Shown: piece by piece, positions 10,525 through 23,928 of the stretch | How positions within the stretch are numbered: the stretch's first letter is position 1 | Layout of the letters: every line of letters starts with the position of its first letter | Source of the DNA: Fibrobacter sp. UWR2 | GTDB taxonomy: Bacteria > Fibrobacterota > Fibrobacteria > Fibrobacterales > Fibrobacteraceae | Assembly (NCBI RefSeq): GCF_002210285.1 | Contig: NZ_MWQE01000001.1 | Span: 434,001-498,000 of the forward strand | Length of the DNA: 64,000 bases | Direction: 5' to 3' | Position numbers and translations under genes: made by a program | Notes under the pieces: generated by a model | Told to the model about the DNA's origin: nothing | The model's input: only the letters and a program-made list of their open reading frames with translations | Databases searched by the model: none

Positions 10525-11706
10525 TTACATGTCTCCTATATCTATCTTCGCCTTGTCACGGGCACGGGTTAGCAACAGTCCAAGTATCAAATATACAACA
10601 GCCTGGATCGCAAGCTGGTAGAGTTTGGGCGCCACATCGTAGATATCGGCCCCCATCTGCTCTATCGAGAGCCACGCGGGTACGGCGAAGGTACTAGGTA
10701 GAATATACGAAATTGCGGTCATCCAGCGCGGCATCAGGTAGGCAGGCCAACTGAAGTTTGCAAGGAACAGCACCGGGATGGAGAGGTATAGGAATAACTG
10801 CATGCTCGATTCGCGACGCAAGAAGATCTGCGAGACAACCATGCCGAGGTTGATAACCGATGCGAGGAATACGATGGAGAAAACCACCATGGGCAGGAGT
10901 TCTCCGCGGCGCGGGAAATCGAAGATATTGTAGACGATGCAGTGATAGAACAGGATGAATGAGCAGTAGTGGACAAAGAAGGCGAGGGAGCGTCCGAAAT
11001 AGCGGTAGGCGACAGTCTCGTTCTCGACGGGACTGTCACGGAACTTTTTGCGGAATCGCCTGTGCGCGCGCGAGCCGCCCAGCACGCAGATGCCGATGAT
11101 GAGCGACTGCTGCAAGATGACTACGAGAACGCTCGGTACCACATAGTTGGCATAGCCGCCGGTACTGTTGTACAGGGTCTGTATGCTGATAGGGATCGGG
11201 TCACGCATGGCGATGGCCTTGGCCGAGGGCACCTTCTTGCCGAGCGCAATCTGCTTCACCTTGTTCGTGGCACCTACCGTCAGGGCGCAGGTGGAGAATG
11301 CCGTTCCGATGGCGCCATGGAACATCACGTAGGCACCGTGCGTAAAGATGTTCACGGTCACCTGGTGCTTGCCGCGGATATCCTTCTCCATGTTCTCGGG
11401 GATGACCATGAACCCGTAAATCTCGTCGCGGGCCATGGCGGCCTCGGCCTGCTGCATGTCGGGGTAGATGGACTTTACCTCGATCTGCTGGGCGGCAGAC
11501 GCCATACGCACCAGGTCGCGGGACATGGCCGTATTGTCGAGGTCGACAACCGCCACGGGCACCTTCGATACCGTCTGGTAGACGTACGGTACCGGGTAGT
11601 AGAACGCATAGATGAGCCCCGCCACCACAAGCAAGAGCACGGCGGCTGGGTCCGTGTATATGAGTTTCCATTCGGCAAAGGCGACTTTCCAGAGGCGCTT
11701 GATCAT
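10525..11706 (-). CDS. ABC-2 type permease, second of a pair
   Basis: This 393-residue inner-membrane protein has one N-terminal helix (about 20-40), a large periplasmic domain (about 45-185, VPVAVVDLDNTAMSRDLVR) and five C-terminal helices (about 190-385). That is the YhhJ/YhgE-like ABC-2 layout associated with HlyD-type adaptor proteins. It overlaps the preceding permease gene by 4 bp. No ABC ATPase gene is in this operon, so the ATP-hydrolysing partner would have to be encoded elsewhere. A drug, lipid or polymer exporter is likely; substrate unknown. Confidence 0.88.
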   Translation of the reverse strand: MIKRLWKVAFAEWKLIYTDPAAVLLLVVAGLIYAFYYPVPYVYQTVSKVPVAVVDLDNTAMSRDLVRMASAAQQIEVKSIYPDMQQAEAAMARDEIYGFMVIPENMEKDIRGKHQVTVNIFTHGAYVMFHGAIGTAFSTCALTVGATNKVKQIALGKKVPSAKAIAMRDPIPISIQTLYNSTGGYANYVVPSVLVVILQQSLIIGICVLGGSRAHRRFRKKFRDSPVENETVAYRYFGRSLAFFVHYCSFILFYHCIVYNIFDFPRRGELLPMVVFSIVFLASVINLGMVVSQIFLRRESSMQLFLYLSIPVLFLANFSWPAYLMPRWMTAISYILPSTFAVPAWLSIEQMGADIYDVAPKLYQLAIQAVVYLILGLLLTRARDKAKIDIGDM

Positions 11707-12872
11707 ATGCTTGCCTCCGCAAGTTTCCTGGCTTCTTCTTCGCGCCTGGTTTCACGACGTGTGAACTGCTTCCAGCGCATCGACATGAGGAACGCTCCGA
11801 GCAGGTTCCAGAACACGGCCATTCCGATGAGGATCTTCATGCTGTTCCACGCGGTCGCCATGTTCACGTCGCCCAGGAGCATGGTCGACTGGATTATGAG
11901 AACGTGGGTGAGGGGCAGGATAAATGCAAAACAGCGAACGGCAAAGGGCATGGCCATCACGGGGAATGTCTGGCCTGCAAATGCAAATGCGGGGCTTCCG
12001 ATAATGCCTGCAGCGCCGGTCGCCATGCGCATCACTCCGAATACGCCGACAAAAACGGTGCCGGCACCGGAGCATGCGAGAATCATGAACAGCTGGGCTG
12101 CTGCCGTCATGACGAATTCTTCGAAGGAGAGCGGTGCGAGAATCCTGTGGCAGTAGGCGTAGCAGCCGAGGGATTCGAGCCAGAGGATAATGTTCATCGG
12201 GAACACGCTAGCCACCCACAAGGTAAGGCGCGAGCCGCCCGCATAGCGGATCATCTCGGTCACGCGGTGGTCTCGAAGCGGGAACGAGGTCACGTACACC
12301 CCGACAATCATTGCCGCGAGGTGGAAAATTGCAGTCACGAGGCCGAACACGAGGAATCCCTGGTAATTGCTCTTGAGGTTCCCTACCGAATGGATTTGCA
12401 CCTTCACGGGGTCTTCCATCTGGGCGGTAAACAGTTCGCTCCCCGCGGCCGCGAGCACGGAGCGGATTTCCTTAGTCGCGAACATGTTGGTGAGGTAGTT
12501 CTGTCCGCTCGAATACACGGGAATAACGGGGGCTTCCAGGCGAAGTGCCCGGCGTTCCATTTCGTTCGGGAAAACGAGGAAGGCCTGGATGTCGCCACGG
12601 ACAACGGCATGCTCGCATTCGCCCATGTCGGAACAGATCATCTTGATGTTGAGTACGGGGCTTGAACGCAGTTTCGATTCAAGCCTGTCTGCAAGTTGGC
12701 CGTTGTCCTGCTTGACAATCCCTATGGGAACGTGCTGCACGATCTGCGAAGAGAACATCCCCATCGTAAACAGGGATACGCCGACAGGCAGGACCACGAG
12801 AATCATCCACAGCACGATATTGTGGCTGAGGTAGATTTTCCGGATGGTTTTTAGTAGGCCATTCAATATCAT
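11703..12872 (-). CDS. ABC-2 type permease, first of a pair
   Basis: This 389-residue permease has the same layout as its neighbour: an N-terminal helix (about 20-40), a periplasmic domain with VPIGIVKQDNGQLADRLESKL (about 48-190), then helices from about 200 to 360. The two are paralogous but diverged, as expected for a heterodimeric exporter core. It lies 12 bp after the HlyD gene. The C-terminus is a charged cytoplasmic tail (RRETRREEEARKLAE). It probably pairs with the next permease and docks to the HlyD-TolC conduit encoded upstream. Confidence 0.87.
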   Translation of the reverse strand: MILNGLLKTIRKIYLSHNIVLWMILVVLPVGVSLFTMGMFSSQIVQHVPIGIVKQDNGQLADRLESKLRSSPVLNIKMICSDMGECEHAVVRGDIQAFLVFPNEMERRALRLEAPVIPVYSSGQNYLTNMFATKEIRSVLAAAGSELFTAQMEDPVKVQIHSVGNLKSNYQGFLVFGLVTAIFHLAAMIVGVYVTSFPLRDHRVTEMIRYAGGSRLTLWVASVFPMNIILWLESLGCYAYCHRILAPLSFEEFVMTAAAQLFMILACSGAGTVFVGVFGVMRMATGAAGIIGSPAFAFAGQTFPVMAMPFAVRCFAFILPLTHVLIIQSTMLLGDVNMATAWNSMKILIGMAVFWNLLGAFLMSMRWKQFTRRETRREEEARKLAEASI

Positions 12873-12884
12873 GGCACAACCGGG

Positions 12885-13883
12885 CTACTTGATGGAGTCA
12901 GCCGAAAGGAGGACGCTCATACCGGGGCGGAGGTTCTCGACCTTTGTCGTCGGGCGGAGGCGCACTTCGAATGTCTTGAGGTCGAATCCGCCGCTTTCCT
13001 TGCTGCTGCGCCAGGTGGCGTAGTCGCCCACGGAGGCGATGTAGCTCACTTCCATCTCGATATCCTTGTCGAGCGCGGGTATGTGCATGGTGAACTTCTT
13101 GCCCTTCGATACATTCTTGAGCATGTCTTCGCGCAGGTGGAATACGGCCCAGGCATCGTCGAGGTCGGTCACCGCGATGACGGGCATGCCGGAACCGACG
13201 ACTTCGCCTTCTTCGGCAAGCTTCAGGGAGACTTCGCCGCTGATGGGGCTCCTGATCTTGGTTTCTTCAAGGTAGGCATCCACTTCGGCGGTGGCACCCT
13301 TCGCCTGCATTACGAGAGCGTTTGCTGCGGCCTTGTCTTCGCTGCGGGCGCCGGCCACGGCCTGGTTGTACTGTGCCTTCGCGGCGTCGGCAGCGGATTG
13401 GCTAGCCTTCATCTGGGTTTCGGCCTCGTCGCGCTTCTGGAGCGGGAGCACGCCTTCGTTAAAGAGCTTCTGCACACGGTCGTAAGTGTTTTTCGCGAGG
13501 GTAGCAGCATCTTGGGCGCGGTCGGCCATGGCCTTGAGCGCGGTAATGTCTTCGCTGCGGGCTCCGTTGCGGGCCTTGCTTGCCTGGGCGCGTGCGGCAC
13601 CGAGGGCGCCCTGGGCTTGCATCTTCTTGGCCTCGATTTCCGGGCTGGAGATGATTGCCACAATGGAATCCTTTGTCACCATGTCGCCCTCGTGCACGAA
13701 CAGGCGTTCGATGCGGCCGGGGACCTTCCCGGCCACGAGCACGCGCCGTGCTTCCATCTGGCCCTGCAAGAAGTTCTCGCGCGGGGCGGTTGCGAATTTC
13801 TGCAATTGGGCGATTCCCAAGACGACAAGTGCAATAAGCACCAGGACAATGATTACCTTACCGATAGCTTTCAGGACGTTCAT
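12885..13883 (-). CDS. HlyD-family periplasmic adaptor (membrane fusion protein)
   Basis: The 332-residue protein has an N-terminal membrane anchor (about 8-27), a split biotinyl-lipoyl domain (AGKVPGRIERLFVHEGDMV near 50-70 and IRSPISGEVSLKLAEEGEVV near 210-230), a long Ala-rich coiled-coil hairpin between them and a C-terminal beta-barrel region. It joins inner-membrane permeases to an outer-membrane TolC. GGAGG precedes the ATG, which overlaps the TolC stop by 4 bp, so the two are translationally coupled. It is one of two HlyD genes in this block. Confidence 0.92.
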   Translation of the reverse strand: MNVLKAIGKVIIVLVLIALVVLGIAQLQKFATAPRENFLQGQMEARRVLVAGKVPGRIERLFVHEGDMVTKDSIVAIISSPEIEAKKMQAQGALGAARAQASKARNGARSEDITALKAMADRAQDAATLAKNTYDRVQKLFNEGVLPLQKRDEAETQMKASQSAADAAKAQYNQAVAGARSEDKAAANALVMQAKGATAEVDAYLEETKIRSPISGEVSLKLAEEGEVVGSGMPVIAVTDLDDAWAVFHLREDMLKNVSKGKKFTMHIPALDKDIEMEVSYIASVGDYATWRSSKESGGFDLKTFEVRLRPTTKVENLRPGMSVLLSADSIK

Positions 13884-15682
13884 TTCTTGACCTCCGTATT
13901 TTCTTTTGCCGCTTCTTCTTTTGCAGGTGCTTCAGCATTCTGGGCCGGAGTCGTTCCGGCAGGTTCCTGCACGTTGGCTGTTGCTTCCGCTGGGCTAGTG
14001 GCCTGTTCGCCGTTGTCCTGGCTTGCCGCATTCTGGTCGGCTGCAGGCTGTGCCGCTGCAGCCGTATCGGCAGGAACTTCGGCCTGTGTCTCAGTTTCGT
14101 TCTTTTCGACCGGGCGTACCGCATTCAGCATGTTGCCGGCTTCTGCTACGTCACCCGAGGCTTCGAGGAGCCCGAGCCATGCGACGACAGCATCGAAATG
14201 CGCCTTGAGGTCGCCGACCTGCAGGCGGGCGAGGGCAAGTTCCGCATCCACCACGTCGAGGCCGGTGGCAAGTCCCGCTTCGTAGGCGCGGGTCTGGCTG
14301 CGGAGCGCCTCGTCGGCGAGTTCACGCGTCTTTCCGAGGCTTGCGAGGCGGCCTTTCGCATGTTCGAGTTCGCGCCAGCGCTTTTCGACGAGCAGGTTGA
14401 TGTTGTCGAGAGTCTGTTCTTCCTTGCTGGCGAGCGATCGTTCCATGGCCTTTGCGGAACTCACCTTCGCTCGGGATTCCGCACCGCCTAGGAAGGGAAG
14501 GTCCCACTGCGCTTTCGCGCCGACGGCCCATTCGGGCTCAAGGATAGTTAAATCTTTCGTGTAGAGTTCGCGGTAGCCGAACAGCGCGATAGTCGGGAAC
14601 CAGTCGGCGCGAGCGGCGCTTACAGCGTCGTGGCTGCGCTTACGTTCCGTGCGCAGCTGGCGCAGTCCTGGGTGCTTTTCGCGGGCGAGCTGCTTGAATT
14701 CTTCCATCGAACGGATCAGTTCGGGAGCCTCGACGGGAGTTGTCGCCGTAATGCTTGTGTCCGTACGGAGTAGGCTTGCGAGAGCCATGCGGGCAAGCGA
14801 CTGGTCGCGAAGGGCGTCTTCGTAGGCGTTTTGAGCCTCGGCGAGGGCCACTTCGGCGCGGAGGCGTTCTGCCTTGCTGATCTGGCCGCCCTCTTCGAGC
14901 TTCTTGGAACGTTCCAGGTGCCCTTCCAGGTTCTTCATTGTCGTTTCGCGCATCACGGTGAGTTCTTCGGCCAGGCGGAGCGTGAAGTACTTGGTCGCGA
15001 CATCCATCAGCACGGCGTTCTGCGCCATGTCGAATTCAGCCTTGCGGGCGTTCACGTTCTCCTTGGCGGCATCGTATGCCGAATAGATCTTGAGGCCGGT
15101 AAAGATGGGCCAGACCACGGTCACGCGCGCGTTGAAGAACACGTCGTCCTGCACCTTCATGCCGAAATCGGTGTCCTTGATTTTCTTGGATGCGGCTTCC
15201 CCGTATTCGCCTGCGGCTTTCTGGGCGAGGTCCCCGACATCCTTGCTGCCCATGACGCCGCTCCTGATTTCGTCGGCCTTCTGGTCGACCATGCTCTTGG
15301 CTGTCGCCTCGTCAAGGCCATAGGCGTTCATGGTCTGCTTCACGGCGTTATCGTAGGCTGTGGAGTACGCAATGTCGTATGCGGAAAGGTAGGCCTTGGA
15401 ATAGGCCGCTGCCCCCGCGATATCGCTAAGGGGTTCCTGCAGGCTGCTCAGGTCAATAATAATGGGGTCATTAATCTTGGTTACGCTGGCAGAAAGGGAT
15501 ATTTTCGGCATGAAACGGGAACGGGCTTCGGTCTTGCCGCTTTCGGCCATGTCCACTTTCGCCCTTTCTGCCTTAATCTGGGAGTTGTTGGATTTTGCCA
15601 TGTCAAGGGCTTCCTGCAGCGTAAGCGGGGAGGCCATTGCCAAAGCGCCCAACGAAACAATGTAAAGTAAGCACTTTTTCAT
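13880..15682 (-). CDS. TolC-family outer-membrane efflux protein with long C-terminal tail
   Basis: The start is set at MKKCLLYIVS, which opens a normal signal peptide (cleavage near MASPLTLQEALDMAKS). Two outer-membrane-factor repeats follow, with the usual TLQEAL opening and AKMALASLLR-like coiled coils. An insertion near residues 70-150 is rich in Ala and Tyr. The last 65 or so residues form an Ala/Glu/Pro/Gln-rich tail not found in typical TolC. First gene of the TolC-HlyD-permease-permease-YugP-zinc-ribbon operon. It forms the outer-membrane channel of the exporter. A TAnnTT-like element lies just before the ATG. Confidence 0.9.
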   Translation of the reverse strand: MKKCLLYIVSLGALAMASPLTLQEALDMAKSNNSQIKAERAKVDMAESGKTEARSRFMPKISLSASVTKINDPIIIDLSSLQEPLSDIAGAAAYSKAYLSAYDIAYSTAYDNAVKQTMNAYGLDEATAKSMVDQKADEIRSGVMGSKDVGDLAQKAAGEYGEAASKKIKDTDFGMKVQDDVFFNARVTVVWPIFTGLKIYSAYDAAKENVNARKAEFDMAQNAVLMDVATKYFTLRLAEELTVMRETTMKNLEGHLERSKKLEEGGQISKAERLRAEVALAEAQNAYEDALRDQSLARMALASLLRTDTSITATTPVEAPELIRSMEEFKQLAREKHPGLRQLRTERKRSHDAVSAARADWFPTIALFGYRELYTKDLTILEPEWAVGAKAQWDLPFLGGAESRAKVSSAKAMERSLASKEEQTLDNINLLVEKRWRELEHAKGRLASLGKTRELADEALRSQTRAYEAGLATGLDVVDAELALARLQVGDLKAHFDAVVAWLGLLEASGDVAEAGNMLNAVRPVEKNETETQAEVPADTAAAAQPAADQNAASQDNGEQATSPAEATANVQEPAGTTPAQNAEAPAKEEAAKENTEVKK

Positions 15683-15772
15683 AGCAAGAATAAGATACAT
15701 ATTTTGTAAAGTTTAGGCAACTCCGTTCGTCGGCTATTTGTGCAATACATCCGACGCCCAGTATACAAGAAA

Positions 15773-15797
15773 GGAACCCGCTTCCTTTGCGGGTTCC
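15773..15797 (-). terminator. Terminator of the DUF4956-to-lamin-tail operon
   Basis: A 9-bp perfect stem (GGAACCCGC / GCGGGTTCC) with a 7-nt loop is followed on the minus strand by TTTCTTGT. It lies 33-57 bp after the lamin-tail gene stop. Confidence 0.85.
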
Positions 15798-15829
15798 TTG
15801 CAATGCTACCAAATGATTACGGCTTCGGA

Positions 15830-17497
15830 TTAGAGCTTGCCCGGAGTCGGAACATCGACCTTCCAGGCCTTGGCCTCGTAGCCCATGGTGGATGTGTCTA
15901 CGCGATGCAGGCTGTAGCCATAGCCGTCTGCTTCGGCAAGGCCATCCCAGTTGTCTGAATAGAGCGTTGCATCGTGCCAGATATAGAAGTACTTGGTAAT
16001 CGAGGCATCCTGGGGATCCTGCTCCTTGGAGAAGGGTTCTTTCACCGCAATCGTTTCGCCGCGGTTAGAGAGTTTGCCCTTGTAGGTCACGATTTGTACT
16101 TCGGCCGGAATCGAATAGGTGGTACGGACGAAATCGGCGTTCCAGTTGGTGATGCCCAAATCTTGCATGTCTACGTCTTCGAGGACCTCAGGAATTAGGA
16201 GCATCAGGCCCTTTGCGGGAATTTTGGTACTGGAGAATTCCAGGTTGATGCCTTCGACCTTCCATCCCTTGTTCACGGAGGAACTGTAGAGGGTGATGTC
16301 TGCATCAGAGCTGTTCACGATTTCCATAAATTCGAACGGAACATTGGTGTTGGATGTTGCCGGATGGTAATGGATTTCGTTGATATAGAGAGAGCCAACC
16401 AAAAGGGCGGAATTCTTTGCACCGGGGGTTGCCGTGGCAAGCGGGCCCTGGGCGGTAGATCCGTCACTCAGGTCGACAACACCGCTCGTCGAGTTGGTTG
16501 CCGACACCCAGATGCTTGATTCATCGCCTTCCTGCGGGCCACGCAGGTAGAATTCACCGCCATCGGGGGCGACAATCAATTCGGCATCAAAAGCTGTTGT
16601 GGCATCTAGAACGAGGTAGTCCTTTGCAGGGACAGTGCCCGACTTAATAGTGAGAGTCTGGCCGCGACGCTTGACTTCGAGAGTCCAGCCTGTGAGATCT
16701 ACGGCCTGGTCGCCCGCGTTGTAGACTTCAATCCAGGATTCCTCGCCGGCCTTGTACGGCTTGATTTCGTTGATGCGTACGTTTGTCGGGGCGACCCACT
16801 GGTCTCCGCCTACGCCCGGGGTTCCGCCGTCAACCTGGCTAGCCGCCCAGGAGTTGGGCTGGGCAGCATTGCCGCCCTTGTACACGAGGGAACGGCCGTT
16901 GCCATCGGCAAGGCTCGGCCAGGGAGGTTCGTTACTGAAGGCGCAGCTCACGTCACCTTCGCCCTGGACCTTCACGTTGACCACGTCACCTTCGTTGAAG
17001 AGCTTGACCGTAGAGGCGTTGTCCCACGGGCCAAAGACCCTCCCGCTAAACGTCGGGTAGGCAGCGGCAAATGCGGCGAGGTCGTTCGTGACCACGACAT
17101 ATTCACCCTTCTTGAGGGGCTCTGCCGGGAACGTGTAATCGACGGCGCCACTCAGGTGAAGGAAAAAGTTCTGCATGTTGTCCATGTCCATGCCGCCCGC
17201 AATGTAGATCTCGATCCATTCGAGCTTGGAATCCTTTGCATGGTACATGATTTCGGAACAGGCCATCTGCGGCTCGGCATTGTCCGCGATAGAGGAACTG
17301 GACTTTACCACGGAAGAACTGCTTCCGGGGTTGTCTCCGCTGCTTCCGGGAACGCCTCCGCTGCTGCCGGGAATCCCTGCGCTCGTTCCAGACGAGGAAC
17401 TATCGGGGTCGGCAGAGGTGGGATCGTCGGAGCAAGCCGAAAATGCACCGAGCATTGCGATGCAGGATCCGGCCAAAAGCCACTTCTTCATGTTCAT
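15830..17497 (-). CDS. Lipoprotein with three lamin-tail (LTD) domains
   Basis: The start chosen is the ATG of MNMKKWLLAG, 8 nt behind AAGGA. The lipobox is FSAC, followed by a Ser/Gly-rich linker (about 28-70). Three LTD modules follow: MACSEIMYHAKDSKLEWIEIY (about 75), VRINEIKPYKAGEESWIEVYNAG (about 240) and LYINEIHYHPATSNTNVPFEF (about 370). LTDs are beta-sandwich modules of surface proteins and are often found with or fused to CotH kinase domains. The gene lies 44 bp after the VTC gene and closes the operon. A surface-exposed binding or structural role is likely; no catalytic residues are visible. Confidence 0.87.
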   Translation of the reverse strand: MNMKKWLLAGSCIAMLGAFSACSDDPTSADPDSSSSGTSAGIPGSSGGVPGSSGDNPGSSSSVVKSSSSIADNAEPQMACSEIMYHAKDSKLEWIEIYIAGGMDMDNMQNFFLHLSGAVDYTFPAEPLKKGEYVVVTNDLAAFAAAYPTFSGRVFGPWDNASTVKLFNEGDVVNVKVQGEGDVSCAFSNEPPWPSLADGNGRSLVYKGGNAAQPNSWAASQVDGGTPGVGGDQWVAPTNVRINEIKPYKAGEESWIEVYNAGDQAVDLTGWTLEVKRRGQTLTIKSGTVPAKDYLVLDATTAFDAELIVAPDGGEFYLRGPQEGDESSIWVSATNSTSGVVDLSDGSTAQGPLATATPGAKNSALLVGSLYINEIHYHPATSNTNVPFEFMEIVNSSDADITLYSSSVNKGWKVEGINLEFSSTKIPAKGLMLLIPEVLEDVDMQDLGITNWNADFVRTTYSIPAEVQIVTYKGKLSNRGETIAVKEPFSKEQDPQDASITKYFYIWHDATLYSDNWDGLAEADGYGYSLHRVDTSTMGYEAKAWKVDVPTPGKL

Positions 17498-17541
17498 AAG
17501 GGCCATCCTTTTTTTATGTCCATAACCTATAGTAAAAGTTC

Positions 17542-18360
17542 CTAGAAGTTGCCAGCCAGTTTTGTCCAGTAGGGACTCTTAAACCGGCGGGGGTTCTCGT
17601 AAACACGCTTCCACTCGGCAGCCGCATTACCGAATTTAGAAAATGCGGCGTGCTTGAGGTTCAAAAATCTTATCAGGTCGAACATCCAGTAGGGAACCTG
17701 TGAGCAAGGACACTTTAATTCGAGCACGGCGTCCATTCCCGGCTGGAAAAAGCGGGGGAGGCCGGTCGAATGCATGTAGTGCGGGTCCACCGTATAGTCG
17801 AATCCGTTCTCTTCGCGGAAGCGCATGCCCGTATCGATGGTGACGCGGGAATATTCTTCGCGGAGTCCGAACCAGGCGCGGCGCTTGTACTGCGTCAAAA
17901 GGCGTGGATGTGCCCCGTGGAGTTCCGTCTTGTACAGGAAATCCTTGAGGTACATGCGGTCCTTTTCGCCCTTGCAGGGCCATTCCTCGGGTTTCATGTT
18001 CCAGACTTCGCCGGGATTGATTCCCTTGATGGTGGCGCGGCTCTTGTAGCAGATGCTGCGGATCTTGCGCTTGACCTCGAAATGGAACGTGCCGTCCTGT
18101 GCGGGGTGTTCACCGTAGGTGCGGATGCGCATGTTGAATCGGTCCAGCAACTGCTTCTTTTTCCAGCCGAGGAACGTCCACTTCGGGGAATCCAGGTAAA
18201 GGTTCGTAATCCAGTAGAATCCGCCCGGTGTAATCTTGGAATAATAGTCCTCTTCACAGTACGGAGCAAGGAAGGCACCAATCCGGTCCGCCCATGCGAC
18301 GGGGATATGGTACTTGAGCTCGAAACGTTCGAGGAGGCTAAAACCGCGGGCTTCTGCCAT
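17542..18360 (-). CDS. VTC-domain protein (polyphosphate polymerase fold)
   Basis: The 272 residues form one VTC domain, the triphosphate-tunnel fold of the yeast vacuolar transporter chaperone that makes polyphosphate from ATP. Tunnel motifs are visible in order: FELKYHI near 13-19, NLYLDSP near 51-57, RIRTYGE near 78-84, FEVKRK near 93-98, TQYKRRAW, SRVTIDT near 170-176 and LELKCP near 212-217. No membrane helix is present, so it acts at the cytoplasmic face or needs a membrane partner, plausibly the DUF4956 protein. It lies 1 bp after the TolC gene. Polymerase activity is inferred from the fold; no bacterial product is proven by this sequence. Confidence 0.9.
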   Translation of the reverse strand: MAEARGFSLLERFELKYHIPVAWADRIGAFLAPYCEEDYYSKITPGGFYWITNLYLDSPKWTFLGWKKKQLLDRFNMRIRTYGEHPAQDGTFHFEVKRKIRSICYKSRATIKGINPGEVWNMKPEEWPCKGEKDRMYLKDFLYKTELHGAHPRLLTQYKRRAWFGLREEYSRVTIDTGMRFREENGFDYTVDPHYMHSTGLPRFFQPGMDAVLELKCPCSQVPYWMFDLIRFLNLKHAAFSKFGNAAAEWKRVYENPRRFKSPYWTKLAGNF

Positions 18361-18361
18361 A

Positions 18362-19741
18362 TTACTTCAAAGCCTCGCGCAAGTGGTTCACGCTGTTTTC
18401 GCGGGCAAGGATGCCTGCGTAGTTGAGCAGTTCAAGGTAGCGGGCGAAAATGTCGTATTCGAGCTTCACTGCCTTCATGTCGCTTTCAAGCGCGCTTTCC
18501 TTGGCGCGCAGGAGCAGCAGCGGGTCGGAACCGGCATTGCGGGCGAACTGTTCCATGAACCCGCTCGCGCCCACCTGTTCCACGAATTCCTTCTGCACCT
18601 TCCACTGGCCAATCAGCGCGAGCACTTCTTCGGTGAGGCGCGCCACCTTCTGGTTAATGTCGCGCACGTCGGCCAGGTAGTCGCTTTCGGCATCGAGCTT
18701 TGCAACCTGGAGCTTGAGGTCGGAATCCTTGCCGCTGTCGAAGAACGGCAGGCGGAAGGCGAGGTTCACGAAGAACTTGTCGGCGGTCTTGCGGCTGTCC
18801 TTATCTGGGACGAGAAAATCCGCTGTTTCGACACAATTTACAGCGGTCGCGCAACCCGTTTTTGTTTTAAAATCTTCTACATAATCGCGATACTGCCCTG
18901 TACCAAACACATCAGATGCGTCCAAAGTCTTGTACTTTTCCATCAGCGATTCGATCTGCAAGGAGTACCCGATACCGATATGCGAGATGTAGTCGCGGCC
19001 CTTGCTCACGTCCTGCTTGGCCTGGGCGACTTCGCTGTCGCGCTTGCCGCGGGCCATCGCCACCAGCGGGAAGTTCTCGTTCACTTCTACGCCGTTCGAG
19101 AGGTTCTGCGCAAGTTCTTCCATCGTCGGGAGGAACGTGGAATCGAGTTCGACGCCATCAAAGTCGGGCACCCAGATTTTCATCTTGAGTTCCGCATCGC
19201 GGAGCGCCGTGCTGTCCGAGAGCAGTTCGGCCTTGATGGATGCGCTTTTCTCGAGCGTGCTCATCAGGTCTTCGGCATTGAACGTCGCCGAACCGGACTT
19301 GAGGTGCAGAACCTCGATGCGGTCGGTGTTCACCTGCAACAGCTGCTTGTTGATTTCGTTGATCTTCTTGCGCATCACATAGCGCACGCCACGTTCGTAG
19401 CGGTCGTAGAGCAACAGCGAGCGTTCAACGCCGAATCTCGCCTTCTCGTAATTCCTTACGGCGTCGGCCCTTTCCTTGTCGGCGCTGCTTTCGCCGAAAG
19501 TCTTCGGGGTCATGCGCAGTTCAAAATCGTGCTTTGCGAAACTGAAACCGTCGAGCTGATAACGCAGTTCCAGTTTGTCCCAGAGCTTGGTGTTCCTTTC
19601 GCCAGACGTAGCTTCGGAACGTTTCTGCGCGGCCTCATAACGGGGGTCGTTCTTTGCGGATTCGACAAGCTTGTCCCATGTGAGGGGGCCTGCGAATACC
19701 GCTGCCGAAAGCAATGCGGGGAGTGCAAAAATGCGCTTCAT
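18362..19741 (-). CDS. TolC-like outer-membrane protein of the VTC operon
   Basis: This 459-residue protein has a signal peptide (cleavage near residue 17, VFAGPLTWDKL) and long amphipathic helices in two halves (about 40-200 and 240-450) typical of outer-membrane efflux proteins. Sequence conservation to classical TolC is low. It overlaps the HlyD stop (TAATG), so it is coupled to it. Together they would form a periplasm-spanning conduit dedicated to the DUF4956/VTC system. Residues about 250-320 include a Cys pair (CATAVNC) that may form a disulfide. Confidence 0.8.
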   Translation of the reverse strand: MKRIFALPALLSAAVFAGPLTWDKLVESAKNDPRYEAAQKRSEATSGERNTKLWDKLELRYQLDGFSFAKHDFELRMTPKTFGESSADKERADAVRNYEKARFGVERSLLLYDRYERGVRYVMRKKINEINKQLLQVNTDRIEVLHLKSGSATFNAEDLMSTLEKSASIKAELLSDSTALRDAELKMKIWVPDFDGVELDSTFLPTMEELAQNLSNGVEVNENFPLVAMARGKRDSEVAQAKQDVSKGRDYISHIGIGYSLQIESLMEKYKTLDASDVFGTGQYRDYVEDFKTKTGCATAVNCVETADFLVPDKDSRKTADKFFVNLAFRLPFFDSGKDSDLKLQVAKLDAESDYLADVRDINQKVARLTEEVLALIGQWKVQKEFVEQVGASGFMEQFARNAGSDPLLLLRAKESALESDMKAVKLEYDIFARYLELLNYAGILARENSVNHLREALK

Positions 19742-20841
19742 TAGTTTTTACCGTCTTTCTTGAGTTTCTTTACGCTTGTCTCGGTGATGGTCACCATCTC
19801 GCCCAGCAGGAACGGATTCTCTTCAGGAATCTTGATGGTCACTTCGCGGCCATAGACAGGCATTTCGGGCATCTTCCACATACGTGTCGGGAAGGGAACG
19901 ATGCGGCTCGAGAGGCCGACAACTTCGCCCACCACGGCCTTACCCGTGCCGGCGAGCGTGGTCACCTTCACGGCTTCGCCCACGTTCATGTTCTGGTAAA
20001 TCTGTTCGTTGATGTAACCGCGCACCAGGGTCGGGCTCTTGTGCGTGAGGGTCACGATCGGGGCGAAGCTCGAAACCTTCTCGCCGTCGCGAACGTTCAC
20101 GTCACCCACGACCCAGTTTTCCTTCGCGATCTGGATGAGTTCTTCCTGCTGCTTCTGGAGTTCCTCGAGTTCCTTCTTCAGGTTCTCGGCTTCGCTCTTG
20201 CCGCTGGTCTTCTGGAGCCTGCCGCTACCGCGGAGGAGTGCAATCTGTTCGTTCGCGCTCTTGGTTGCAAGTGCAAGTTCGTTCTTGAGGCTCTTGATGC
20301 GCATGGCCATCGCGTCGTTGCCGTCACTGCCGGACTTCGAGTTCGAGAGGCTCTTGAGCTTAGCGGAAATGGCCTTGTTGTTCTGGTATTCCGTCTCGAG
20401 GTTGCGGATTTCGGCGGAGAGGGCCAGGCGGCGGGTCTCGAGGTTCGCCTTGACTTCGGCCACCTTCTGGTCGATTTCGGCGGAACTCAGGTTGCTGCGG
20501 CCTTCGAGGGCGTCAAGTTCGCGGGTCAGTTCCGAGATGCGGAGGTTCAGGTCGGGGCGGTTGATTTCGACAATCGTGTCGCCCACCTGGACTTCCTGGC
20601 CGGGAACTACGTGCACCTTCACGATTTCTGTTGCGGAGGGCACGCTGATGATGGTTTCGCTAGCTTCGGCGATGCCGCGGAACATGGCGGCCTTTCCCTG
20701 GTACATGAAGCCGAGCACAATTGCCATGATAAGGCACAGAGCCCATGCGATGGAGAGCTTGTGAGTGTAGACGTATGCTACGCCAGCGTTGTTCTTGTGG
20801 GTGTTCCAGAATGTATCGAGAAAATCTTCAATCTTGTTCAT
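19741..20841 (-). CDS. HlyD-like periplasmic adaptor of the VTC operon
   Basis: The 366-residue protein has a cytoplasmic N-terminus, one membrane helix (about 29-49), a lipoyl-like segment (VHVVPGQEVQVGDTIVEINRPDL near 77-100), a long coiled coil (about 100-235) and a C-terminal half with VRDGEKVSSFAPIVTLTH and NMNVGEAVKVTTLAG. The layout is that of a membrane fusion protein. It lies 9 bp after the DUF4956 gene, with a GGGGT ribosome site. It links the inner-membrane part (DUF4956) to the TolC-like protein encoded next. Confidence 0.88.
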   Translation of the reverse strand: MNKIEDFLDTFWNTHKNNAGVAYVYTHKLSIAWALCLIMAIVLGFMYQGKAAMFRGIAEASETIISVPSATEIVKVHVVPGQEVQVGDTIVEINRPDLNLRISELTRELDALEGRSNLSSAEIDQKVAEVKANLETRRLALSAEIRNLETEYQNNKAISAKLKSLSNSKSGSDGNDAMAMRIKSLKNELALATKSANEQIALLRGSGRLQKTSGKSEAENLKKELEELQKQQEELIQIAKENWVVGDVNVRDGEKVSSFAPIVTLTHKSPTLVRGYINEQIYQNMNVGEAVKVTTLAGTGKAVVGEVVGLSSRIVPFPTRMWKMPEMPVYGREVTIKIPEENPFLLGEMVTITETSVKKLKKDGKN

Positions 20842-20850
20842 CTTCGACCC

Positions 20851-21534
20851 CTACATTTCCGTCGTGGCATCCTGCATCATGAACTGCACGTCCGAGATGC
20901 CATCAAGTTTTGAAAGCTCGTTCAGGATTTCTGCGGCGGGCTTTGTGGCACGGAGCCTAATCTGGTAGGCCACGTCGAGGCGGGCTCCGCCATCGACTTC
21001 GCGCATGGTAATCAGGATGAACGTCTTGAGACTCGTCTTCATGATCTGTTCGACCTGGGCGCGGACCGGGCCTTCGTTGGGGAGGGCGAAGCGGAGCATG
21101 CCGTCAAAGAAGTGCTTGGTGCCAAGCCCTGTGCGGGAGAGGAGGAATGCCACGCAGCAGAAAGCGACCGTACCACCGGCGGCAGCACCCCAGGCGTACA
21201 CGCCGCAACCGATACCTGCGCCTAGCGCAGCGAATATGAACATGATATCTCGTGGATCCTTGAAGCTCGTACGGAAGCGGACGACCGAGAGGGCACCCAT
21301 CATACCGAGGCCGCGGCCGACGTTATCGCCGATGGCCTGCATAATCATTGCCGCCGCGACCGAGCTCAAGACGATGCCCTGGACGAAGTTGCGGGAGTAG
21401 GAAAGGCCGAGGAACGTTTTTTCGTATGTCCACCCGATCATGGAAGAGAGGATAAAGGCCAATGTAAGCGTGTAGATCAGGGTAATGATCGTAGCATTGG
21501 TCGTACTGGATTGGACCGCAAGAAGGTCGAGCAT
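20851..21534 (-). CDS. DUF4956 membrane protein
   Basis: This 227-residue protein has four N-terminal membrane helices (about 15-35, 50-68, 95-115, 120-137) with the family core GALSVVRFRTSFKDPRDIMFIF at residues 80-101. A soluble C-terminal domain (about 145-227) ends in an ACT/ferredoxin-like pattern (ILNELSKLDGISDVQF). The family is uncharacterised but recurrently found with VTC and CotH genes. As first gene of the operon it is the most likely inner-membrane component; it might carry or gate the product of the VTC enzyme (inference). GGAG precedes the ATG. Confidence 0.88.
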   Translation of the reverse strand: MLDLLAVQSSTTNATIITLIYTLTLAFILSSMIGWTYEKTFLGLSYSRNFVQGIVLSSVAAAMIMQAIGDNVGRGLGMMGALSVVRFRTSFKDPRDIMFIFAALGAGIGCGVYAWGAAAGGTVAFCCVAFLLSRTGLGTKHFFDGMLRFALPNEGPVRAQVEQIMKTSLKTFILITMREVDGGARLDVAYQIRLRATKPAAEILNELSKLDGISDVQFMMQDATTEM

Positions 21535-21791
21535 AGCATCTCCATTTATTAATTGCTTTTTGTCTCCATAATCTACTTAAAAAAGCCGTTTTTTAGGGCG
21601 TTTTTCTGTAAAAATGGGTCAACAAAAACATGTTTAATTCCTTAAAAAAGGTGTAGAGTGATGTTTTCACCCGAAAAATAGATAAAAGCACCCCAAAACA
21701 CACGTAAAGAAGAGTTTATAAAGCGAAATCCGTTGTAATTTGGTACACCAGCGGGCGCTTGAAATCGTTGAAAAACATTCAAAAAACTTCC
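21535..21791. other. AT-rich divergent intergenic region
   Basis: No gene is visible. The region separates the minus-strand DUF4956 operon from the plus-strand barrel gene and must hold both promoters. A TAGATTAT element about 35-45 nt upstream of the DUF4956 ATG is a candidate for the operon promoter. The AAAAACGGCTTTTTT-type stretch near 21582 could form a small hairpin. Confidence 0.4.
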
Positions 21792-21799
21792 TATATTTA
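21792..21799 (+). promoter_or_regulatory. -7-like element TATATTTA of the barrel gene
   Basis: This TAnnTTT element lies 22 nt before the ATG and is followed by a strong AGGAGGA ribosome site. It contrasts with the leaderless-type promoters elsewhere in the window. Confidence 0.5.
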
Positions 21800-21821
21800 C
21801 AGAAAATTTACAGGAGGAAAG

Positions 21822-22559
21822 ATGAACCTTTCTAAAGCATTTGCCACTGGAGCGATTGCCGCTACGTGCGCGCTTGCCCAGGAGAATGTTCAGGCTGCTG
21901 ACCAGGGTAACACACAGCCGGTTGCACAGAGCGCAAGCAAGGCTGTGAATGCCGACAAGATCGGCTTCGGGCTACATGGCGATTTCGAGTACGGCTTCCT
22001 TTACGGTCTCGAACAGGACTGGAACGGTGGCGACGAGACCGACGCTCCTTCGGGAATCGGTCTTGACGTGGGTGTGCGCGGTCGCATCCCCATGACGAAC
22101 TTCTTGCAGTTCAACCCCGAGGTGAACTTTCACTACATTAGCCTTACACAGTCGGACGAAGGGACAAAGAGCAGGTTCACGCAGATGGACATCGAGGTTC
22201 CCCTTGCCGTACGCGCATTCGTTATCGACATCTTCTATGTCTCGGCAGGCATTCAGGCAAACCTGAACATCTATTCCGATGCCTCGCTGGAAACGGAAGA
22301 CGCTGTCGATGTCGAGAATGAAATCTTTGTCGACATGGATGACCTGCTTGAAATCGATGTGGAAAATTCCGCCTTCACTCTCGGGCTCGTGTTCGGCGTG
22401 GGCGTCAACATCATGGACCGCCTCACGTTCGATGCCCGCCTTGTTCTTGGCGTGACGGATGCCTACGTTGAAAGCGACGATGCCGAAAGTTCCTGGCTGG
22501 TACTTGACGGCTCGAAACTGATGAGCTTCAAGTTCGGTGTCGGATTCTGGATCCTGTAG
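21822..22559 (+). CDS. Outer-membrane beta-barrel protein
   Basis: The start is the ATG of MNLSKAFATG, 8 nt behind AGGAGGA; an upstream in-frame ATG lies before the promoter. The 245 residues include a signal peptide (cleavage near residue 26), a polar Gln/Ala-rich stretch and alternating hydrophobic strands (IGFGLHGDFEYGF, GIGLDVGVRGRI, FNPEVNFHYISL). They end in the aromatic strand FKFGVGFWIL typical of outer-membrane barrels. An acidic segment (about 165-190) is probably an external loop or periplasmic turn. Function unknown; PorT/OmpA-like size. Confidence 0.75.
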   Translation: MNLSKAFATGAIAATCALAQENVQAADQGNTQPVAQSASKAVNADKIGFGLHGDFEYGFLYGLEQDWNGGDETDAPSGIGLDVGVRGRIPMTNFLQFNPEVNFHYISLTQSDEGTKSRFTQMDIEVPLAVRAFVIDIFYVSAGIQANLNIYSDASLETEDAVDVENEIFVDMDDLLEIDVENSAFTLGLVFGVGVNIMDRLTFDARLVLGVTDAYVESDDAESSWLVLDGSKLMSFKFGVGFWIL

Positions 22560-22607
22560 GAATTCGGATTCCGGAATAGGGAACTGGAAAGTAGTTTGTA
22601 TAAAAAA

Positions 22608-22633
22608 GAAGCCCGCTCGATTGAGCGGGCTTC
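22608..22633. terminator. Bidirectional terminator
   Basis: An 11-bp perfect stem (GAAGCCCGCTC / GAGCGGGCTTC) with a GATT loop lies between convergent genes, with an A-run on the left and TTCTTGTAT on the right. It can serve both. Confidence 0.9.
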
Positions 22634-22656
22634 TTGTATACTCTGATTTGGTTGGA

Positions 22657-23928
22657 TTACCAACCAATGCCGCATTCGATGGGTGCGTTGTCGGATCCGA
22701 GAGTGACCTTCACCGGCATAGCGTATTTCCCAATGGTGTGAGCAACTTGCATCTTGCTTTGTACAGAAACGTAGTTGACACCAGAAAGGGTAATGCCATC
22801 TATGGATACAGAATACGAAGTGTTGCCTCCGTTACAGAATACAGTGCAGGTTTGGTCGCTGTTGTGCCATCCCTGCGGCAAGTCTGCAACCAGGCTGTAT
22901 TCGCCAGACTTGTCGAAAGTGACTCGGTCTTCGGTTGACGAAATAGAAAAGTCGGGAATGTCAGAGTTGATTGCCTTCGCATCGGGGCAGGTGACAGTTA
23001 CGACGGTGTTGTCATCGTTGGCGACGGCAACGGAAACGCCCTTGACCTCTTCGCCCTTCGTAGTGACCGCGGCAGTTGCGGCTTGGCCCGTGGCATCGGC
23101 GGTGGCGCCGGTCCAGGTATAGCTGATGATGTTCGCTCCGGTAGAGGTGCAGCCGGAGAGGATCCACGAGGCGGATTCTCCCTTCGCAATATCAGGTTGG
23201 AGGTTGTCGCCCGAGCACTTGCAGCCCGTGATAGGAATGCCGTTCACCTGGAGTGTCTTGCTGCAGGTAATCGTCTCGGAACCAGTGGCGAGGGACACCT
23301 TGACGGTGGCGGTCTTCTTTCCGGACTTGGAGTAACTCACTTGACCAGAGGTTAAGGAACGGGCTACAGAGGATGTCGTCGGTGTTCCGTCTTCGAAAGT
23401 CCAATCGAACTGGACAGTGGAAATTGCCGTAATGTCTAGGCCCGGTCCCCTGGTGAACTTCCAGGTTGTCGGAGTGTTCAGTTCCACCGTTTCAGTAGCG
23501 GGAGCGCAGTCTCCAAGGCCGGTTAGCGGCGTTTCGGAGGAAGAGGAAGACTGTACGGGAGGCGTAGAAGAACTGCTGCTGTTACCCGGGCCGATGGGGC
23601 CAATCGAGGAGAACGGCATGAAACTAGAAGAACTTGCCTTGACGGAGGACACCGGCGTAGAAGAGGAGACGGGTGCCTCGCTAGAGGACGACTCGAGTTC
23701 GCTTCCGTTTGCCTTGATCATCTCGTTGTAGCAATCGAGATCTTCGGTGCACTGGTTCTTGGCTTTTTCTATCTGCGTAGAAAGCTGAAGACCGCCTTCA
23801 TCTGCATTAAGCATTGCCCTAATAAAGTCATCGTCTGCATTCATGGGTTCCACGGTACCACCGCCGCAGGCCCAAAAGCCGGCCGCGACGCCGATAGCGG
23901 AAAGACCTATCAAAAGTTTCTTCTTCAT
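22657..23928 (-). CDS. Lipoprotein with Ser linker and PKD-like modules
   Basis: The 423-residue protein has a lipobox FWAC (Cys 21), a helical Glu/Cys segment (about 30-75), and an extended Ser-rich linker with Pro/Gly (about 76-135). Two PKD-like beta modules follow (about 140-230 and 235-325), joined at VNGIPITGCKCSGD, the same Cys-x-Cys hinge seen in the large lipoprotein next to CotH. A third region (about 330-423) resembles a ligand-binding beta domain. No catalytic motif is visible. AGAGG precedes the ATG. Likely surface-displayed; role unknown. Confidence 0.75.
   Translation of the reverse strand: MKKKLLIGLSAIGVAAGFWACGGGTVEPMNADDDFIRAMLNADEGGLQLSTQIEKAKNQCTEDLDCYNEMIKANGSELESSSSEAPVSSSTPVSSVKASSSSFMPFSSIGPIGPGNSSSSSTPPVQSSSSSETPLTGLGDCAPATETVELNTPTTWKFTRGPGLDITAISTVQFDWTFEDGTPTTSSVARSLTSGQVSYSKSGKKTATVKVSLATGSETITCSKTLQVNGIPITGCKCSGDNLQPDIAKGESASWILSGCTSTGANIISYTWTGATADATGQAATAAVTTKGEEVKGVSVAVANDDNTVVTVTCPDAKAINSDIPDFSISSTEDRVTFDKSGEYSLVADLPQGWHNSDQTCTVFCNGGNTSYSVSIDGITLSGVNYVSVQSKMQVAHTIGKYAMPVKVTLGSDNAPIECGIGW

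Follow-up and report, generated by a model that had tools for sequence, protein, structure and literature searches.

What does a bacterium make, and where does it send it, when a polyphosphate-polymerase-fold enzyme is encoded in one tight row of genes with a periplasmic adaptor and an outer-membrane channel? In bacteria, polyphosphate is mainly known as a product of PPK that is stored inside the cell, and we know of no machine dedicated to its export. In the literature searched, we found no description of a VTC-HlyD-TolC unit, no paper combining the VTC domain with TolC, none relevantly combining HlyD with VTC-related terms, nothing pertinent on polyphosphate in F. succinogenes and no report of an assay of any bacterial VTC protein. 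We present here the analysis of such a row in a 64-kb stretch of DNA from Fibrobacter sp. UWR2, hereafter the window.

Five genes form a probable single transcription unit

An open reading frame check of the window placed five genes on the minus strand, running from 21534 to 15830 in the order DUF4956, HlyD, TolC-like, VTC and lamin-tail-domain (LTD) lipoprotein (Table 1). Successive genes are spaced by a 9-bp gap, a 1-bp overlap, 1 bp and a 35-bp gap, the last being the maximum. The genes, span and tight packing are exactly those of the original prediction, and the identities it gave were also correct, four of them by Pfam matches and the TolC-like protein by its predicted fold. A strong intrinsic terminator follows the last stop codon and another, belonging to the upstream same-strand gene, marks the upstream limit, so that the five genes are probably transcribed together. 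The efflux genes (TolC/HlyD/ABC-2) at 10525-15700 appear to lie outside this unit. Co-transcription with that downstream operon was considered and rejected, given the intervening terminator and a linkage found in only part of the family. The host genome holds one copy each of VTC and DUF4956. A PADLOC search returned no match and so gave no hint of a known defence system.

Table 1 Features of the operon and its surroundings (positions in the window).
Feature	Length	Position	Strand	Evidence
DUF4956 membrane protein	227 aa	20851..21534	-	PF16316 4.5e-12
HlyD-family periplasmic adaptor	366 aa	19741..20841	-	HlyD_3 8.5e-10
Divergent TolC-family outer-membrane channel (predicted)	459 aa	18362..19741	-	OEP 0.0015 (below cut-off) and AlphaFold2 fold
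VTC-family triphosphate-tunnel enzyme	272 aa	17542..18360	-	PF09359 5.8e-29
Lamin-tail-domain (LTD, x3) lipoprotein	558 aa	15830..17506	-	PF00932 6.4e-27, 3 stretches
Intrinsic terminator after last operon stop		15771..15799	-	11-bp stem, 7-nt loop, T tail
Intrinsic terminator of upstream same-strand gene (upstream limit of operon)		22606..22635	-	
CotH kinase-domain lipoprotein, outside operon	674 aa	5196..7220	-	PF08757 8e-24

The four-gene core is conserved across phyla

The original prediction would have been refuted by neighbourhoods in which the five genes do not stay together, but they are conserved together. Of the 43 Fibrobacterota loci of this layout that were sampled, 41 keep the core order and tight spacing, the other two being cut by contig ends, and the LTD gene lies downstream of the core in 40/43. 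The flanks of the core vary between Fibrobacterota lineages. A genome-wide scan found the DUF4956 subfamily encoded in 304 stretches, and among the best 80 of these, 65 carried all four core genes at full length, 23 of the 65 outside Fibrobacterota. The DUF4956-HlyD-TolC-VTC core was thereby recovered in Desulfobacterota, Campylobacterota, Gammaproteobacteria, Bdellovibrionota, Calditrichota and others, and this conservation rules out chance adjacency. Pairwise distances of the four core proteins correlate at 0.93-0.97. In the VTC and HlyD trees, phyla mostly group together, with deep forks lacking support and some rows long-branched, a pattern compatible with descent with or without horizontal transfer. 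One locus (L161) counts against the export model given below: it has DUF4956-HlyD-TolC without an adjoining VTC gene. Its core is followed by a DUF47/PhoU-like gene and a PHO4/PiT permease, and in another locus (L197) a phytase-like esterase gene follows VTC; these phosphate-related neighbours speak for the model.

The VTC enzyme retains Vtc4-type active-site residues

Searched alone against the PDB, the VTC sequence had no match, but the family profile matched yeast Vtc4 (3g3q) at 3.4e-17 as its best match. No transmembrane segment was seen in the protein. Using the profile-to-3g3q alignment to map Vtc4 residues, we found that 19 of the 20 tunnel and active-site positions checked are invariant in 66/66 loci and the remaining one is kept in 65/66. 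The equivalents of Vtc4 K200, R264, R266, K281, K294, R361, R373, E426, S457 and the catalytic K458 are all invariant in the 66 type-B loci. PPK1 and PPK2 are absent from the host genome (100% complete), leaving VTC as its only recognised polyphosphate polymerase; Ppx-GppA is present. On these residues, we propose that the VTC protein is a putative cytosolic polyphosphate polymerase.

A predicted adaptor-channel duct, DUF4956 and candidate surface lipoproteins

The HlyD family profile matches EmrA (8zar, 4.4e-7), with HlyD_3 above the cut-off, and in most relatives outside Fibrobacteraceae the adaptor carries a fused C-terminal beta-propeller. The TolC-like protein begins with a signal-peptide-like stretch. 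Its Pfam OEP match is weak, and the TolC-family profile found no match in the PDB; structure prediction decided instead. The AlphaFold2 model (mean pLDDT 86.6) aligned to TolC/OMF structures with a VIA Z of 23.5 and an rmsd of 5.2 over 382 residues, the first unrelated chain scoring 8.8, and Foldseek matched the same structures at 2.1e-11, so the protein is predicted to have a TolC fold. In none of the lineages examined does the conserved unit include an ABC, MFS or RND pump, although one could be encoded elsewhere.

For DUF4956, we propose about five helices, with the N terminus outside, the C terminus inside and a cytosolic ACT-like C-terminal domain, the topology being read from charges. 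R86 and R88 are invariant, and K92 and R95 are always basic (49/49 loci); together they may form a basic cytosolic mouth, and DUF4956 is proposed as an inner-membrane channel or coupling subunit. Its AlphaFold2 model is of moderate confidence for the inner-membrane part (mean pLDDT 74.5, pTM 0.55). The family profile had no match in the PDB, and the structure search matched the ACT-like domain only (VIA Z about 9-11), not the membrane part. With a moderate-confidence membrane model and no solved structure found, a pore in DUF4956 is a guess.

The LTD lipoprotein has a lipobox-like FSAC and a Ser-rich linker, and we propose it as a surface partner. The CotH lipoprotein (lipobox-like LAC), which the original prediction did not include, lies about 8.6 kb downstream of the operon and is a candidate trans-acting partner; the host genome encodes 13 CotH proteins in all. 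CotH or LTD proteins flank the core in many related loci, and LTD is fused to a CotH kinase in other lineages.

A model of synthesis-coupled export and its relation to known systems

We give a probability of about 0.5 to reading the operon as a trans-envelope exporter that couples transport to synthesis and whose cargo is a phosphate polymer, with inorganic polyphosphate the likeliest. We infer its activity, product, direction and assembly as follows. Cytosolic VTC would polymerise phosphate from ATP within its tunnel, as does yeast Vtc4, and the growing anionic chain would enter the inner membrane via DUF4956, whose four basic residues would line the cytosolic mouth; DUF4956 would thus stand in for the membrane domains of yeast Vtc1/3/4. 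HlyD and the TolC-like protein would form a sealed duct from the periplasm through the outer membrane, with transport powered by polymer synthesis, so that the proposal needs no separate pump. Lamin-tail and CotH proteins on the outside of the cell might bind the polymer or put it to use, for instance as a matrix that binds cations or as a source of phosphate. The CotH and LTD genes that border the core in many loci, and the co-occurrence of CotH with VTC detailed below, speak for this model. In the original prediction, synthesis at the inner membrane was joined to a dedicated conduit; to this, we can add a gene set conserved as a unit, an intact polymerase-type VTC site, a predicted TolC fold and no other inner-membrane transporter in the unit, while the making of a polymer, its export and the surface location are what we infer. 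Counting against polymer export, a TolC barrel has far more room than a polyphosphate chain needs.

One of the closest known systems is the yeast Vtc1/3/4 complex (3g3q, 8i6v; PMC9911596), in which synthesis is coupled to translocation along a basic belt. It shares with the operon a tunnel enzyme that is homologous and has identical active-site residues, and a membrane partner with conserved basic residues on the cytosolic side. Unlike the yeast complex, the operon has no SPX domain, has DUF4956 instead of a VTC1-type transmembrane domain and adds a periplasmic adaptor and outer-membrane duct, the proposed target being the cell surface rather than the vacuole. With EmrAB-TolC, type I secretion and AcrAB-TolC, it shares an EmrA-related adaptor and a TolC-fold outer-membrane factor; it differs from these tripartite exporters in its pump-less conserved unit, in an adaptor that is often beta-propeller-fused and in an inner-membrane partner that would be DUF4956, driven by synthesis.

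In Gram-positive bacteria, VTC (PPP)/DUF4956/CotH/DUF4832 accessory clusters adjoin pel loci, according to the accessible text of PMC7112168. As in the operon, a VTC-family polymerase is paired with DUF4956; CotH is near the pair in those clusters. That text names no HlyD, TolC or lamin-tail gene and links the clusters to pel polysaccharide genes. In the window, VTC and DUF4956 share an operon and CotH is 8.6 kb off, although it is adjacent in many relatives. The compact VTC-DUF4956 layout described in that text resembles the type-A clusters of other Fibrobacterota (L107-L121), where VTC likewise adjoins DUF4956 and the genes that come next often encode a putative outer-membrane barrel protein and CotH kinases. 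HlyD and TolC are missing from type-A clusters, with a weakly Porin_O_P-like protein in the place of the duct; a search with one of the barrel proteins found no relative in the PDB, at least one cluster holds a Cthe_2159 protein, and their VTC and DUF4956 are only about 20% identical to the window proteins.

Alternative explanations

It is unlikely, but deserves weight, that CotH kinases depend on VTC and DUF4956 for their phosphate donor, short polyphosphate or some other energy-rich phosphate delivered to the periplasm and surface, and use it to modify Ser-rich proteins of the surface, among them the lamin-tail lipoprotein; polymer would then not be the end product. CotH is generally described as ATP-using, which counts against this idea, as do its absence from the side of the core in some lineages, including most Fibrobacter, and the difficulty of explaining a full TolC duct by short periplasmic donors. 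Support comes from the co-occurrence of CotH with VTC (of 151 genomes, both in 119, neither in 24 and a mismatch in 8, in raw counts that ignore kinship), from its place adjoining the core in many loci, from the sorting tails or lipoboxes of CotH proteins and from the Ser-rich LTD linker. The phosphorylation of Ser-rich coat-protein repeats by B. subtilis CotH, given in the accessible text of PMC7821199, points the same way.

Somewhat more doubtful is that HlyD-TolC exports a small molecule or the lamin-tail and CotH proteins, with VTC and DUF4956 as a regulatory or energising module that responds to phosphate. Export of unrelated cargo is common among TolC/HlyD pairs, and EmrA, which the adaptor resembles, is usually a drug-efflux adaptor. 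The ACT-like domain of DUF4956 could equally be regulatory, and its weak similarity to MgtC (NCBIfam) could point to the same role. Such a division of labour fits poorly with a conserved unit free of ABC, MFS or RND pumps, with VTC and DUF4956 evolving in step with the duct genes, with the polymerase residues retained in VTC and with the LTD protein's own lipoprotein signal.

We consider it improbable that VTC is a triphosphate-tunnel hydrolase or other nucleotide enzyme that makes no polymer. The TTM superfamily is catalytically diverse, and its hydrolases and cyclases have Glu at four acidic-patch positions where the polymerase is basic (PMC4641920). Applying this distinction, with equivalences anchored by the motif and the VTC-Vtc4 alignment, we found three of the AtTTM3 glutamates (E2, E4, E90, E171) replaced by basic residues (R12, K106, K216); the fourth position, E14 of the ExExK motif, stays acidic in 66/66 loci, which counts against a polymerase. 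The three basic replacements argue for one, as do Vtc4 being the best profile match and the invariant equivalent of K458, a lysine dispensable in the hydrolase TTM3 (PMC4641920).

That ordinary efflux genes merely happen to lie beside a VTC/DUF4956 pair is suggested by the genuine ABC-2 efflux operon directly downstream in the window, which has a HlyD and a TolC of its own, but a terminator separates the two and the core order is conserved across Fibrobacterota and other phyla while the flanks are not, which already refutes it.

Implications

Since the four-gene core recurs in several phyla, it may be an undescribed machine for phosphate-polymer synthesis and export. Tentatively, we go further and suggest a pump-less TolC-type tripartite duct in which a polymerase pushes polyphosphate via DUF4956 to the surface, as a new class of machine, widespread in diderms, that serves CotH and lamin-tail proteins. 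If true, this would add a further polyphosphate route and a principle of synthesis-driven export, in organisms that can be without PPK. It would also give DUF4956 a role and suggest a purpose for the VTC/DUF4956/CotH clusters that recur, among them the ones close to pel loci and at a disease-associated locus of C. perfringens.

Conservation of a five-gene unit in Fibrobacterota and of its four-gene core beyond

The original prediction placed five packed genes at 15830-21534, and all five open reading frames lie there on the minus strand. In order of transcription, a gap of 9 bp is followed by an overlap of 1 bp and then by gaps of 1 bp and 35 bp. The window spans 434-498 kb of contig 1 of the host genome. 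Pfam bore out the DUF4956, HlyD, and VTC identities and found three lamin-tail domains, while the TolC match fell under the Pfam cut-off and draws its support from the fold of an AlphaFold2 model (mean pLDDT 86.6, built from 51 aligned relatives). This model matched the TolC fold with a Foldseek E of 2.1e-11 and a VIA-align Z of 23.5 (rmsd 5.2 over 382 residues; first unrelated chain, Z 8.8), so that a TolC fold is predicted. Because terminators bound the five-gene unit, the efflux genes downstream form a separate operon, whose linkage or spacing to the unit differs in two relatives (L066 and L075).

Features of the window and of related loci
Locus	Coordinates	Strand	Feature
Window	21534-20851	-	DUF4956
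Window	20841-19741	-	HlyD
Window	19741-18362	-	TolC-like
Window	18360-17542	-	VTC
Window	17506-15830	-	Lamin-tail lipoprotein
Window	15799-15771	-	Strong terminator hairpin, end of unit
Window	22635-22606	-	Second terminator hairpin, upstream of unit
Window	15700-10525	-	Ordinary efflux operon: TolC, HlyD, two ABC-2-type permeases
Window	5196-7220	-	CotH kinase lipoprotein
Window	21759-22559	+	Outer-membrane beta-barrel protein (OMP_b-brl_2, 1.2e-12), divergent, at operon head
Window	22657-23928	-	Upstream protein, weak PKD-domain matches, Ser-rich linker; own terminator at end
L157	13729-17058		Large core-adjoining protein
L159	13469-16798		Large core-adjoining protein
L166	5411-8857		Large core-adjoining protein
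L168	13088-15558		Large core-adjoining protein, cut at 823 aa
L113	5981-7492		Cthe_2159-family protein
L165	6853-8985		Cthe_2159-family protein
L161	12860-13915		DUF47/PhoU-like gene and PHO4/PiT phosphate permease
L197	6636-8288		Full phytase-like esterase (PF13449, 2.4e-46)

In a sample of 151 genomes of the phylum, DUF4956 (119 genomes) and VTC (121) usually lie near each other on one contig, in two layouts. In type A, VTC adjoins DUF4956, and the genes that often come next encode CotH kinases and a putative outer-membrane barrel protein; the layout in the window is type B, with HlyD and TolC. The five genes proved to be conserved together, the opposite of what would have counted against the original prediction: the order DUF4956-HlyD-TolC-VTC is kept in 41 of 43 fetched type-B loci, the remaining two being cut by contig ends, and the lamin-tail gene lies downstream in 40, once after two extra open reading frames. 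The flanks of type-B loci are not conserved between lineages, and therefore selection keeps the unit together.

A type-B DUF4956 profile scan over the genomes of 84,980 species confirmed 304 stretches, of which the best 80 were fetched. All four core genes are full length in 65 of these, 23 of them outside Fibrobacterota: in Desulfobacterota (e.g. Desulfonema magnum and Desulfoluna), Campylobacterota, Gammaproteobacteria (Crenothrix, Methylococcales), Bdellovibrionota, Calditrichota, and Delongbacteria. The other 15 are mostly cut by contig ends; exceptions include a split VTC (L143), a fragmented contig (L171), L165, which has a divergent TolC in place (2e-36, wider profile), and L161, where no VTC adjoins the other genes. 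DUF4956 is the last rather than the first core gene in several lineages. Pairwise distances of the four core proteins correlate at 0.93-0.97 across the 65 loci, as co-inheritance would predict, although shared ancestry alone raises such figures too. In Bdellovibrionota, proteins of 1109-1148 aa lacking a Pfam match adjoin the core, and proteins of the Cthe_2159 carbohydrate-binding family recur next to VTC/DUF4956 clusters of both layouts.

VTC resembles a polyphosphate polymerase

Searched against the PDB, the VTC family profile matched yeast Vtc4 (3.4e-17). Of 20 checked tunnel and active-site positions, 19 are invariant across all 66 type-B VTC sequences (R12, E14, K16, Y55, D57, R78, R80, Y82, E95, K97, K106, R108, R160, R172, D176, E214, K216, S241, and K242), and F240 is kept in 65. 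Equivalents of Vtc4 K200, R264, R266, K281, K294, R361, R373, E426, S457, and K458, read through the profile-to-Vtc4 alignment, are among the conserved positions. The polymerase Vtc4p carries four basic residues at sites that are glutamates in TTM hydrolases, and the hydrolase TTM3 is little affected when its counterpart of the catalytic K458 is mutated (PMC4641920). Since three of these four positions are basic in type-B VTC and the fourth, E14, is acidic, the enzyme looks, from its sequence, like a polymerase retaining one acidic hold-over. Neither PPK1 nor PPK2 was found in the host genome (3.28 Mb, 100% complete), which encodes a Ppx-GppA protein; PPK1 occurs in only 50 of the 151 sampled genomes.

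DUF4956 and a proposed trans-envelope duct

The conserved core contains no ABC, MFS, or RND pump, and DUF4956 is therefore the sole candidate inner-membrane component. Its model (pTM 0.55, moderate confidence) has about five helices and a C-terminal ACT-like domain. Neither R86 nor R88 varies in either layout, and positions K92 and R95 are always basic in type B; by the positive-inside rule, all four would sit at the cytosolic mouth in the topology we infer. In yeast VTC, a belt of basic residues leads from the Vtc4 tunnel exit into the channel through the membrane, and the complex couples synthesis with translocation (PMC9911596).

The window HlyD is related to EmrA. Outside Fibrobacteraceae, most lineages fuse a C-terminal beta-propeller to HlyD, with weak phytase-like (PF13449), SdiA-regulated, or DUF3616 matches. 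In a Methylococcales locus (L197), a phytase-like esterase directly follows VTC. In a gammaproteobacterial metagenome-assembled genome (L161), no VTC adjoins DUF4956-HlyD/propeller-TolC, and phosphate-related genes stand at its place. These single loci lend the core a phosphate flavor.

Proposed surface partners and export route

The window lamin-tail protein reads as lipoprotein-like, with a Ser-rich linker. CotH kinases, often lamin-tail-fused, neighbor the core in Desulfobacterota, Calditrichota, Delongbacteria, and others, and lie directly upstream of the operon in several Fibrobacterota loci; the host genome encodes 13 CotH proteins. VTC and CotH presence agrees in 143 of 151 genomes (119 both, 24 neither, 2 VTC only, 6 CotH only; raw counts that ignore kinship), and in one genus (g14) CotH occurs in exactly the two genomes that have VTC. 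VTC/CotH also occur in a disease-associated locus of C. perfringens (PMC2879425).

The most economical reading, to which we give a probability of about 0.5, is a pump-less exporter. VTC would polymerize phosphate in the cytosol, the chain would cross the inner membrane via DUF4956, HlyD-TolC would carry it outside, and CotH or lamin-tail proteins would use or hold it. The genes, the unit, its conservation, the active site, and the lack of PPK are observed, and the TolC fold is predicted; from these we infer the activity, cargo, direction, assembly, and surface role of the exporter. The putative type-A barrel protein, at the duct's place, fits the same export logic. The first of two main alternatives, a system supplying a phosphate donor to the CotH kinases, we consider unlikely. 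The second, in which the duct serves some other cargo and bears a regulatory module, is slightly less likely.

One study (PMC7112168) describes VTC (PPP), DUF4956, CotH, and DUF4832 as accessory genes adjoining Gram-positive pel loci. A search of the literature outside subscription papers and preprints returned no paper joining a VTC domain with TolC, and a wider one over the same literature gave nothing relevant involving HlyD. We place the five-gene unit among the VTC/DUF4956 clusters, to which it adds a trans-envelope duct. If pump-less, synthesis-driven export were shown, it would constitute a new class.
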